Shown here piece after piece: positions 12,555-62,174 of a DNA stretch of 64,000 nt. A program made the translations under genes and the position numbers. The notes under the pieces were generated by a model. The model was given only the letters and a program-made list of their open reading frames with translations. It made no database searches and had not been told where the DNA came from. The DNA comes from Burkholderiales bacterium 39-55-53 (GTDB lineage: Bacteria; Pseudomonadota; Gammaproteobacteria; Burkholderiales; Burkholderiaceae_C): the NCBI GenBank assembly GCA_002282445.1, contig NCJK01000004.1:62001-126000 (forward strand). Direction: 5' to 3'. Positions within the stretch are counted from its first letter, which is position 1; every line of letters starts with the position of its first letter.

Positions 12555-12636
12555 ACGCCGAGAGCGCGGTGTCTGATTTGGCGCCATCACGGCCCGAAGG
12601 GACGTTAAGACAAGTCAGACACCGCGCTCTCGGCGT
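12555..12636 (+). repeat. Hairpin element H2 (loop-conserved, stem-variable)
   Basis: A perfect 22-bp stem: 12555-12576 (begins ACGCCGAGAGCGCGG) pairs with 12615-12636, around a 38-base loop. The loop contains the same core as H1 in opposite orientation (GGCGCCATCACGG, then CCCGAAGGGACGTTAAG). The central CCCGAAGGG can form a small inner stem. No T-run follows on either strand. Confidence 0.85.
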
Positions 12637-53283: not shown

Positions 53284-53353
53284 CTCGTTCTTTCTAAATG
53301 AGATGCACGTCGGTCCAAGCGAACCAGAGAAATCTCTGAGGGGAAATAAAAGT

Positions 53354-53714
53354 GTGAAGCTCGCCGATACGCCGGATTCTGTGCACCATGGTTGCCCACG
53401 GCGTGACCGTCATTAATCTGGGCCGAGGGTTGCCCACTCGGCTCGGTGCTACCTACCCGCCAACTCTGCGGAACCACATCAACGCTGGCCTACTTGGTAT
53501 TGCTGCGCGTAGAGATTGCCCGTTTCACCCACCTTGTATGCTCGTACCTCCGGCTTGCGCCTTCGGTGCTGCACACAAGGTGACTCGTCTCTGTTGCTCT
53601 AATCCTCACCTCACGGTGGAGAGGTGTTACCTCTTACGCTGTCCTACGCAGTCCGGACGTTCCTCCAGTGCCTGGTTTCCCAGATTGCACCAGCGACGGC
53701 CTAGCGAACTTCAC
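53354..53714 (-). ncRNA. rnpB: RNase P RNA, bacterial type A
   Basis: About 361 bases on the minus strand. The P1 helix is formed by GTGAAGTTCGC at the 5' end (53714) and GCGAGCTTCAC at the 3' end (53354), 10 of 11 paired. Universally conserved pieces are present: GGAGGAACGTCCGGACT near the 5' end and ACAGAATCCGGCGTAT near the 3' end, with GAGGTAACACCTC and GGTGGGTGAAACGGGCAA in between. It is the catalytic RNA that matures tRNA 5' ends. End positions may be off by a few bases. A GATAAT -10 box (53726-53721) lies seven bases upstream. Confidence 0.95.
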
Positions 53715-59181: not shown

Positions 59182-60096
59182 TTAGGCAAAGCCTAGCTGC
59201 GTTTTTGACTTTTTCGGCACTGTCTCGCGCTTGGGGCGGAACACATTGACGTCTTCGTAATATGCACGCTCGGCATTGGCGGCGCACCAGCCGGGTATAC
59301 CTAAGACGGGCAATGGCTCATAGGGTTTGGTGGCGAGCTTGGCGGGTTGCAGGTCTTGCACCAGCCATGCATCTAACGCAGCTTCGTCGTGTGGGTTCAC
59401 TTCATTCGACACACGGTACACATGGCCTGTGATCGACTTGTAGGGCGTGACGAGTTTTTCCACCAAAGCATGGCCAAACAACACCAAGTGCACCTGCTGC
59501 CATTGCTCGCGCAAATCCACAAAGAGCTTGAGCCAATCGCGAGCTTGCAACGCAACCCACACCTCATCGGGCGCGTGCATGAGCACCACGTTTTCGTCAA
59601 ACAGCGTAAGTGCATCGCGCACAGGGCCGCGAGTGGCGCTGATACCTTGGGCTTCGATCTCTGCGGCTTGGAGTTGGTTCAAGCGGCGTTTGGCCAATGG
59701 GAAGCGTTGCCAGCACAGGCCATTGAAGAAGTCGTGCAGGCCGTCGCGTGTGGGGACTTGGGATGTTTTGAAGATGAAGTCTTCGTAGGCTTGGCCTTCG
59801 GGCAGGGTTGATTGGGATACGAACTTCACCTCTTTGGCGTCGCCAAGCGCGAGGCCAGCACGGGTCGTGCTCACGCTCGCTGCGCTCGCAACATCACCCG
59901 AGCCCGCGCTGGCCTCGCACTTGGCTGCGTGATTTATTGCGTTAAGTGCTTCGGCCACGCTTTGCTGCTTCAGCGCTAATTGGGCCGTGGGCTCGCCGAG
60001 TTCGCGCCAAGGCGCGAACCACGGTTGGGACCAATCTATCTCGGCTAAGACAGCGCCTGCAAAGCCTTCAACTTTCGGACTTAAACCACGCGCCAA
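59182..60096 (-). CDS. DUF3025 family protein with in-frame hairpin-element insertion
   Basis: A 304-residue protein of the DUF3025 family, function unknown. Conserved parts are [12 protein letters not shown], the [20 protein letters not shown] segment and [15 protein letters not shown]. Residues 58-85 (between NAINHA and [10 protein letters not shown]) are encoded exactly by hairpin element H4 and are low-complexity (Ala, Ser, Gly), inserted in what should be a short linker. The only available start is a TTG at 60096, 16 bases inside pyrC. Confidence 0.85.
59842..59925 (-). repeat. Hairpin element H4 inside the DUF3025 coding sequence
   Basis: Arms 59842-59864 and 59903-59925 pair over 23 bases, 21 Watson-Crick and two that are G.U on the minus strand. 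The loop is 38 bases and on the minus strand contains GGTGATGTTGCGAGCG and CGCAGCGAGCGTGAGC, related to the H3 loop. The element is 84 bases (28 codons) and starts on a codon boundary, so it keeps the reading frame. Confidence 0.85.
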
Positions 60097-61112
60097 GGCA
60101 ATGCCTCGCCAGAACGCAGAGGTTTCAAATCGGCTTCGCCGAACACAAAGCTCTCGGGTGGTGTCCAGCTCTCTTTGCGCAGGGTGAGCGTGCCTGTGTT
60201 GCGTGGCAAGCCGTAAAAGTCTGCGCCGTAGAAACTGGCGAAGCCTTCGAGTTTGTCGAGCGCGCCTGCGTTGTCAAACGCTTCGGCGTACATGGGCATG
60301 GCCGCGTGGGCGGTGTAGCAACCTGCGCAACCGGTGGCGTGTTCTTTGAGCTGTGCAGGGTGTGGTGCGCTGTCAGTACCTAAGAAAAACTTAGGTGAAC
60401 CGCTGGTGGCGGCTTTCACCAACGCTTGGCGATGCGTTTCGCGCTTCAACACAGGCAAGCAGTAGAAATGTGGGCGAATGCCGCCGGTGAAGATGGCGTT
60501 GCGGTTGTACAGCAGGTGGTGCGCAGTGATGGTCGCGCCGGTGTACTTGTCTGCAGAGGCCACGTATTGCGCAGCGTCGGCGGTGGTGATGTGCTCGAAC
60601 ACAATTTTGAGTTCGGGGAAATCTTTGCGCAGCGGAATCAGCTGGGTGTCAATGAACACGGCTTCGCGGTCAAACAAGTCGATATCGCTGCTGGTGACTT
60701 CGCCGTGCACCAACAACAACATGCCTGCTTTTTGCATGGCTTCGAGTGTTTTGTAGGTCTTGCGCATGTCGGTCACACCGGCATCGCTGTTGGTGGTGGC
60801 GCCTGCTGGGTACAGCTTGGCAGCGACCACGCCTGAGTCTTTGGCGCGGGCAATTTCGTCGGTGGGCAAGTTATCGGTGAGATAGAGCGTCATCAAAGGC
60901 TCAAAGCTCACACCTTGAGGAACTGCGGCCAAGATGCGTTGTTTGTACTCAAGTGCTTGCGCCGCGGTGGTGACGGGGGGCTTGAGGTTGGGCATGATGA
61001 TGGCGCGGCCAAATTCGGCGGCGGTGTGGGGCACCACGGTGTTGAGTGCAGCGCCATCGCGCACGTGCAGGTGCCAGTCGTCGGGTTTTGTGATGGTGAG
61101 TTGTTGCGTCAT
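60081..61112 (-). CDS. pyrC: Dihydroorotase
   Basis: A 343-residue class II dihydroorotase of pyrimidine synthesis. Zinc ligands and active-site groups are visible: [12 protein letters not shown] at the N-terminus, [42 protein letters not shown] and the catalytic Asp in FLGTDSAPH. The start was set at the ATG at 61112; the longer frame runs back through hairpin H5. H5 begins 42 bases upstream. Confidence 0.96.
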
Positions 61113-61153
61113 GCCTTGATTGTCGCTTTTTTGTTTCTGGGCTCGCTGCGGGC

Positions 61154-61215
61154 GGAGGCAGTGGGCAGGTTCCTCATGCTGGTGCACCAGAAATCGTCAC
61201 CTGCCCACTGCCTCC
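61154..61215 (-). repeat. Hairpin element H5 (perfect 17-bp stem)
   Basis: GGAGGCAGTGGGCAGGT (61154-61170) pairs perfectly with 61199-61215 around a 28-base loop. On the minus strand the loop reads GACGATTTCTGG, TGCA, CCAGCATGAGGA; its centre CTGGTGCACCAG is itself a palindrome. The loop matches that of H6 at 26 of 28 positions in opposite orientation, while the stems differ. Confidence 0.9.
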
Positions 61216-61270
61216 ACCCACAGACTGCGACCTACAAAAGTTTGATTAAAACTGTTGGTGATCGACAGTT

Positions 61271-61342
61271 GCGTGGCTTGGGTGCGGCGGCTGACGATTT
61301 CTGGTACCCCAGCATGAGGAAGCCGCCGTGCCCAAGCTGCGC
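61271..61342 (+). repeat. Hairpin element H6 (22-bp stem)
   Basis: Arms 61271-61292 and 61321-61342 pair at all 22 positions on the plus strand, 18 Watson-Crick and four G.U. The 28-base loop reads GACGATTTCTGG, TACC, CCAGCATGAGGA, the same as H5 inverted except for two central bases. The inner CTGG/CCAG stem is kept. Confidence 0.9.
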
Positions 61343-61379
61343 AACACTCTCCGGCGAGAAACCCTCACGAGCGCAAATG

Positions 61380-61436: not shown

Positions 61437-62174
61437 TCAGTGCGCCAAAATCTTGTTCAAAAACTCTTTGGTCCGTGGCTGACGGTTTTCGGGGTGGTTG
61501 AAGAACTCATCCTTCGAGCAGTCTTCCAAAATCTTGCCACCCACATCCATAAAGATCACACGGCTACCCACTTTGCGAGCGAAGCCCATTTCGTGGGTCA
61601 CGCACATCATGGTCATGCCTTCGTTGGCCAAGTCCACCATCACGTCCAACACCTCGCCCACCATTTCGGGGTCGAGTGCGGAGGTGGGTTCGTCAAACAA
61701 CATCACGATGGGGTCCATGCTCAAGGCACGGGCAATCGCCACGCGTTGTTGTTGGCCGCCTGAGAGTTGGCCTGGGAACTTGTCTTTGTGTGCCATCAGG
61801 CCCACACGCTCTAGGTATTTCAAACCGTGTGCGTGCGCTTCTTCTTCGGTGCGGCCCAAGACTTTTTGCTGCGCAATGGTCAAGTTTTCGGTCACCGACA
61901 AATGTGGGAACAACTCAAAGTGCTGAAACACCATGCCCACGCGGCTACGCAGTTTGGGCAGGTTGGTGTCTTTGCCGTGCACCGCAATGCCGTCGACCAT
62001 GATCTCGCCTTCTTGGAAAGGCTCCAAGGCATTGATGGTTTTGATGAGGGTGGATTTGCCCGAGCCTGATGGGCCACAGACCACCACCACTTCGCCTTTT
62101 TGAATGACGGTCGAGCAGCTGTTCAGCACTTGAACAGGGCCGTACCACTTGGAAACATTTTTTAATTCAATCAC
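61437..62174 (-). CDS. gltL: Amino-acid ABC transporter ATP-binding protein (GltL/GlnQ-like)
   Basis: A 245-residue ABC ATPase of the polar amino acid family. Walker [15 protein letters not shown]-loop [16 protein letters not shown] signature [15 protein letters not shown], Walker [15 protein letters not shown] and H-loop CVTHEMGFA are all intact. It is the last gene of a four-gene operon with two permeases and a binding protein; order and sequences resemble the glutamate/aspartate system gltIJKL. Confidence 0.93.

Follow-up and report, generated by a model that had tools for sequence, protein, structure and literature searches.

The two long hairpins ahead of pyrC are read here, with a probability of roughly 0.5, as a single copy of a Comamonadaceae palindrome that is REP/REPIN-like and whose loop-sense strand would be recognized as a folded hairpin, likely in the form of single-stranded DNA. 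Throughout the family to which they belong (F1), the loop motif and the pairing of the stem are kept while the letters of the stem are free to change, and evolution appears to preserve the folded shape of one strand.

In the window, which is the whole 64,000 nt stretch of DNA that was analysed, the gap between two minus-strand genes, pyrC (start at 61112) and a glnQ-like one (end at 61437), is roughly 325 bases long and holds two hairpins, H5 and H6. The pyrC gene (60084..61112) lies downstream of H5 and encodes a 343 aa dihydroorotase (TIGR00856, 466 bits; cut-off of 293); the glnQ-like gene (61437..62174) codes for an amino-acid ABC transporter ATPase and has its end upstream of H6, and its best NCBIfam match, GlnQ, scores 299 bits, below the cut-off of 379. 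The loop-sense strand of H5 (61146..61223) is the minus strand and that of H6 (61268..61345) is the plus strand, which bears out the divergent orientation that the original prediction had assigned to them. The spacer between them (61224..61267) has 44 nt here and is longer, as judged by eye, in most orthologues that have both hairpins. Each stem has 25 bp when G·U pairs are counted, and the covariance model matches score 94.0 bits for H5 and 92.5 bits for H6; the stems are longer than the 17 and 22 bp first given. The 30-base loop cores, TGACGATTTCTGGTGCACCAGCATGAGGAA in H5 (61170..61199, minus strand; TGACGATTTC-TGGTGCACCA-GCATGAGGAA) and TGACGATTTCTGGTACCCCAGCATGAGGAA in H6 (61292..61321, plus strand; TGACGATTTC-TGGTACCCCA-GCATGAGGAA), both match the own-genome pattern with 0 mismatches and are identical at 28 of 30 positions, while 16 of the 24 left-arm positions differ (L006 versus L007); the description of like loops on unlike, paired stems was accurate.

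The flanks of the hairpins fall into two classes. H5 belongs to class A, whose hairpins have a 5′ head, CGCAGTCT (61222..61229, minus strand), that overlaps the foot of the stem, and a 3′ tail, AGCGAGCCCAG (61137..61147, minus strand), that is common to class A copies by eye. The head is identical or one letter off in five other own-genome copies (by eye: L002, L004, L005 with GTAG, L010 with GCAGACT, and L012); by eye, GCAG stands in most class A heads and GTAG in few, and neither was seen in class B. H6 belongs to class B, whose 3′ tail (TCTCCGGCGAGAAACCCTCACGAGCGCAAA; 61348..61377, plus strand) has similar counterparts, by eye, in orthologues and in the hairpin paired with L018. A basal ruler motif for the whole family was considered and rejected: by eye it is seen in class A, but it is weak at the foot over 76 representatives.

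Both hairpins fold far better than shuffled sequence. As RNA, the loop-sense strand of H5 reaches -64.8 kcal/mol (z = -10.3) and its other strand -55.7 kcal/mol (z = -7.5); the corresponding values for H6 are -59.2 kcal/mol (z = -8.9) and -47.1 kcal/mol (z = -6.1), and for each of the four strands 0 of 200 shuffles fold as well. As DNA, the loop-sense and other strands give -32.8 versus -28.0 for H5 (z = -8.0 and -5.7) and -31.8 versus -27.7 for H6 (z = -7.3 and -5.8). The minimum-energy RNA fold of H6 contains the inner layout that had been drawn for both loops, with an isolated C-G pair followed by CUGG/CCAG, whereas the fold of H5 pairs the loop interior otherwise. Rfam has no match on the hairpins at the gathering score; its sole match in the window is the bacterial RNase P RNA class A at 53352-53712 (minus strand, 204.9 bits), and the sub-threshold matches on both hairpins are microRNA models, plus BTH_s39, an sRNA model, at 15.5 bits versus 77. 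A further long hairpin, with 23-bp arms that are 91% complementary and a 38-nt loop, lies at 59842-59925 within a minus-strand ORF adjoining pyrC.

The conservation of structure is seen across the copies of the host genome. With 3 mismatches or fewer allowed, the full 2.56 Mb genome gives 12 matches to the core pattern and 0 to the reversed control pattern. In these 12 copies, 97.0% of the stem cells are paired (66.6% on shuffling), 23 of 31 pairs are changed on both sides (16.3 on shuffling) and 103 cells carry double changes (30.9 on shuffling); when the partner column is slid by 1-3 columns, at most 45.2% of cells are paired, with at most 17 double-changed pairs and 36 cells. Only the loop pattern was used to find the copies, and the stem covariation was therefore not built into the search. 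Between copies within the genome, 2 to 18 of the 24 left-arm positions differ, and the stem length is 22-29 bp in 71 of 76 representatives.

The same compensation is found at the pyrC site itself. A search expression for H5, which demanded an intact head and core and so left decayed orthologues outside the count, matched 12 of 21 loci with 9 distinct stems. Of their 288 pairs, 260 are Watson-Crick, 21 are G·T, 1 is A·C and 6 are other combinations, and double changes occur at stem positions 3, 9, 10, 11 and 16. By eye, H6 is damaged in several loci, H5 is gone in G057 and halved in G054, and the element is absent from the site in G074 and G086. Much of the genus retains the element at this single site; from the stems and the decayed orthologues, it is therefore old here and has been maintained mostly, though not always. 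Together with the double changes among the own-genome copies, these stems support the earlier proposal of selection on structure with a free stem sequence, and neither of the two outcomes that the original prediction had named as contrary to it, a lack of further copies and stems lacking compensatory changes, occurred.

The strict core is missing in 70 of 314 hairpins, and the outer tandem G·A is accordingly no fixed feature; in one subfamily, ordinary pairs replace it. CGATTT...ATGAG is kept in 282 of 314 hairpins (224 of 244 with strict and 58 of 70 with variant cores). The apical stem-loops are variable and, by eye, frequently agree within a pair or a genome.

A G·T mismatch on one strand of a stem is an A·C mismatch on the other, and the counts of the two differ sharply. 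On the loop-sense strand of the 12 own copies, with no selection on the stem, there are 29 G·T versus 2 A·C among 288 pairs. In 43 stem-distinct hairpins of named genomes, there are 40 versus 4 among 774 pairs (p = 2e-8); this set was defined by the loop pattern and by a symmetric stem filter that required 12 or more Watson-Crick pairs among 18, by which 13 of 102 hairpins failed and were dropped, and the rest were merged by similarity. With symmetric scoring over pairs 4-18 and near-duplicates merged, the counts are 82 versus 5 in 87 strict-core hairpins and 33 versus 2 in 36 variant-core hairpins. A loss of the wobble bias upon alteration of the core was not seen between these two sets, and the bias is therefore independent of the outer G·A pairs. 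Scoring that mildly favours G·T gives 178:10 in 105 hairpins, and 92:5 of 1444 pairs in 76 hairpins. The ratio is weaker over whole stems with orthologues kept and symmetric scoring (317:60 for strict and 109:19 for variant cores); of the 60 A·C cells counted for strict cores, 36 fall in pairs 23-29, at the outer end. The other mismatches among the 1444 pairs (14 G·A, 7 G·G, 6 C·T and 1 T·T) do not decide between DNA and RNA.

The strand specificity is independent of host transcription. With stem scoring that mildly favours G·T, the ratio of G·T to A·C is 51:3 in hairpins that lie along genes and 60:4 in those that lie against them; inside ORFs, called by a simple rule of length and GC3, it is 34:1 in sense and 31:2 in antisense. 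Under the same scoring, copies within uvrA show 15:0 in sense and 10:1 in antisense to the mRNA, where the uvrA strand was found in 5 of the 10 loci given and the copies are partly homologous; uvrA mRNA was rejected as the active molecule because its antisense copies show the same bias. The bias is the same whichever way the genes run, and it is therefore the element itself, rather than the host transcript, that sets which strand is active. The original prediction had folded the loops as RNA; a strand preference that ignores neighbouring transcription fits single-stranded DNA at least as well.

Copies of the element are found in the own genome and in others of its bacterial family. A covariance model (R1), the check that the original prediction had suggested, was built from the 12 own-genome matches to the loop pattern and finds 18 distinct hairpins in the own genome (19 rows at E <= 1, one of which is the opposite strand of H5), as well as matches in relatives. 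Counting the own genome, R1 matches 37 of 84 genomes of the genus, with up to 26 match rows in a single one (which may include opposite-strand rows), and 51 of 299 genomes drawn from the bacterial family, in 35 of 141 genera; in a sample of the order, 3 of 399 genomes match, every one from the own bacterial family and the own genome among them. The loop pattern occurs in 109 stretches of named genomes. Among the matches listed (80 of 109), these include Limnohabitans, Rhodoferax and Malikia granosa, and other titles are Comamonadaceae, Burkholderiales, beta proteobacterium and one freshwater MAG titled Bordetella parapertussis. The stem is present in 86 of 97 loop-pattern matches among those listed (80 of 109 loci); of the 11 stemless ones among them, 9 stand under other titles (Treponema, Bacteroidaceae, Zoogloeaceae etc.) and look like chance matches, while one of the remaining 2 has a decayed stem and the other lies at the end of a contig. 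The loop pattern has 0 matches in viral contigs, the H5/H6 pair has no blastn match in plasmids, and no element of such a kind in Comamonadaceae was reported among the matches listed from the open-licence PMC literature. One locus (L035, G008:C3:270-1112) is a local array of 5 family hairpins, 4 minus and 1 plus, of which the first three are 174 bp apart, and two loci of a Limnohabitans MAG from Baikal (L236 and L253) have multiple divergent pairs per contig, near successive genes.

The layout of the hairpins is also regular. Among 98 distinct sites, orthologues included, neighbours that face opposite ways are always divergent, with 27 '-+' pairs and 0 '+-' pairs, and 2 more groups read '-++'. 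The sites lie between unidirectional genes in 46 cases, between convergent genes in 27, between divergent genes in 6 and inside ORFs in 18, with 1 unassigned; this placement departs from a 2:1:1 share (p = 0.001), which is an assumption and not a genome count. Within ORFs, in-frame hairpin pairs occur in the linkers of a double-length UvrA in G342 and its relatives, where the protein has 2329 aa in L104 (UvrA, 1870 bits) and 2252 aa in L105, is likewise double in L107, and has regularly spaced hairpin pairs. A cassette array, or an autonomous element with a gene of ~1.9 kb between copies, was rejected, since the spacing is that of the double-length uvrA linkers in the loci examined. In L105, three translated UvrA inserts look nearly identical.

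The element is present in some relatives and absent from others. In the aligned candidate empty sites, two at C1_120k retain traces of the element and resemble the outcome of deletion between short repeats, and the others have no clear remnant; in none of these alignments was there a clean insertion polymorphism, and a target-site duplication was not definable in them. Deletion accounts for at least part of the absences in sister genomes, as at C1_120k, and therefore no insertion event has been caught.

The layout of F1 strongly resembles the known REP/REPIN kind, which qualifies the initial statement that the hairpins match no named element, a statement in line with the Rfam result at the gathering score. 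In the broad sense the family is REP-like, with repeated palindromes, dimers of opposite orientation, a position mainly downstream of genes and occasional in-frame copies. PMC3733652 describes REPs as head-to-head dimers, mostly downstream of genes and with copies inside uvrA, and gives the GTAG REP stems as 5-13 bp; in PMC8266576, the E. coli TnpA-REP acts on the REP and not on its complement, and requires the internal mismatch. Compared with these descriptions, F1 shares with GTAG REPs and REPINs a palindrome with internal mismatches (as in the REPs of the E. coli type), strand specificity, head-to-head dimers, and locations after genes and in uvrA; the genome also has a RAYT-like gene, and GCAG, or in a few copies GTAG, stands at the class A foot. 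It differs in its stem of ~25 bp with free sequence, versus 5-13 bp, in having the apical internal loop as its conserved part, and in that its own RAYT gene is not flanked by F1 and Y1 co-occurrence is weak. The CGTC REPs, which include Neisseria dRS3 and Rickettsia RPE-4 and RPE-6, are in PMC3733652 mostly head-to-head dimers, with some heterodimer families, intragenic copies and no transposase found; CGTC (or TGTC, CCTC) stands unpaired at the foot of a stem of 8-9 bp, and the tail is CCA. The other strand of the F1 core reads CCTC-AT...AT-CGTC, and both CGTC and CCTC are tags in that description; however, the tag letters of F1 lie within the hairpin, in the internal loop and not at the foot, there is no CCA tail and the stem is far longer. 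F1 fails the features of stem length, transposase linkage and tag position, and is therefore not filed as a member of either the GTAG or the CGTC REPs; its proposed way of working is like theirs. Integron attC sites are likewise single-strand hairpins that are recognized by structure and have weak sequence conservation. F1 would resemble them as a structure-recognized single-strand hairpin, but its conserved part is apical and not basal.

The only Y1 transposase match of the own genome is of the REP-associated (RAYT-like) type and scores 79.4 bits, just below the NCBIfam cut-off of 80; there is no copy of the element in the surrounding 8 kb. In 2 of 9 RAYT loci searched (G041 and G056; L121 and L123), a copy lies ~4 kb from the gene, at a similar distance in both. 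Across the bacterial family, 43 of 51 element-bearing genomes and 179 of 248 others have a Y1_Tnp match (p = 0.08). Such a match is absent from 8 of the 51 bearing genomes, by comparison of the tables by eye (2 have an entry of zero, and the other 6 do not appear among the matched rows), which suggests that RAYT is not needed to carry the element. Within the genus, the match is found in 34 of 37 bearing genomes versus 31 of 47 others (p = 0.008), an association that is not used here, since many of the genomes are incomplete and related by descent. RAYT as the sole mobiliser was rejected on the weak co-occurrence across the bacterial family and the lack of flanking copies at the own gene.

The conservation of structure, the strand specificity and the layout are directly shown, and they best fit a mechanism in which the recognized object would be the folded loop-sense strand. 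Its short internal loop, with CGATTT facing ATGAG and often more tandem G·A pairs, would have a variable apical stem-loop above it and, below it, a stem of ~25 bp whose letters would matter little as long as they pair. Its working form would most likely be a single-stranded DNA hairpin exposed at the replication fork or in strand processing, and a putative protein would bind this hairpin strand-specifically, by analogy with TnpA-REP/RAYT enzymes, which bind REPs and not their complement. Single-stranded DNA is favoured over RNA as the active form, though not proven; like it, we infer a binding protein and past mobility. Mobility alone does not account for pairing that has lasted so long at one site, and this persistence suggests that the element is still in use or benefits the host. 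Counting against the REP/REPIN-like reading, besides this persistence, the weak link to RAYT, the long and free stem and the lack of a caught insertion, no dedicated transposase was identified, and the tolerance of G·U also fits RNA.

A tentative possibility is that the family forms a new class of single-strand-recognized element, whose own binding protein, neither RAYT nor a known transposase, would read an apical internal loop on a long stem with free letters. It is rather unlikely that the hairpins are instead self-transcribed structured RNAs, each being a small RNA, or part of one, read outward from the spacer and bound by a protein at CGAUUU/AUGAG. Such RNAs would account for the preference for G·U over A·C on the loop-sense strands of the two hairpins in a pair and for the strong RNA folds of H5 and H6, and RNA internal loops commonly contain tandem G·A and U·U pairs; but just ahead of the hairpin no sequence is conserved (0.19 bits or less between positions -45 and -28, over 76 representatives), the copies in uvrA and other ORFs would require antisense transcripts, and Rfam is without a match at the gathering score.

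The pairing of the arms might also arise with no selection at all, if template switching within the hairpin kept them complementary around a loop that is an old shared sequence. Runs of adjacent compensated changes between close species (GGCAGT versus GGGCAT at pyrC) are of the kind that palindrome self-correction would leave, as are the arms at C1_120k, which are largely paired though the core is altered in two orthologues (a variant core in G056 and beyond that in G058). The explanation is nevertheless improbable: it predicts about as many G·T as A·C, versus the observed 40:4, 82:5 and 33:2, and the loop is conserved across genera. Very improbable is a role as an mRNA 3′-end element, a terminator or stabiliser working in the neighbouring transcript. 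Over the set as a whole, the wobble bias is equal with and against the genes (51:3 versus 60:4) and inside ORFs (34:1 versus 31:2), no T-run was seen after H5 or H6 on the loop-sense strand, and some copies lie within coding sequence, all of which oppose it despite the placement of sites after rather than before genes (46 unidirectional, 27 convergent and 6 divergent).

The family bears on how palindromic repeats are recognized and kept; CGTC-type REPs are reported to lack a transposase (PMC3733652). In this family, nature has randomised the stem and kept the loop, so that the determinants of recognition can be read from sequence alone, and the count of G·T versus A·C provides a clean strand label that parts strand recognition from the effects of host transcripts. 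The analysis also yields a covariance model for a family unmatched in the Rfam release searched, which in some species is translated into UvrA linkers.

The window contains a hairpin of a second loop family, F2, at 12555..12636 (plus strand; pattern match), whose loop, GCCATCACGGC...GACGTTAA, has an F1-like architecture on a different long stem. F2 has 3 exact pattern matches in the own genome, two of which form a divergent pair (C7:45836- and 45967+), and by eye its wobbles are G·T on the GCCATCACGGC strand. A second family with the same design as F1 suggests that the design is general; if the element is indeed a new class, the occurrence of at least two families of one design in a single genome may reflect a general architecture whose loops can be exchanged. 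The RAYT gene of G058 has an F2-type hairpin ~1 kb away.
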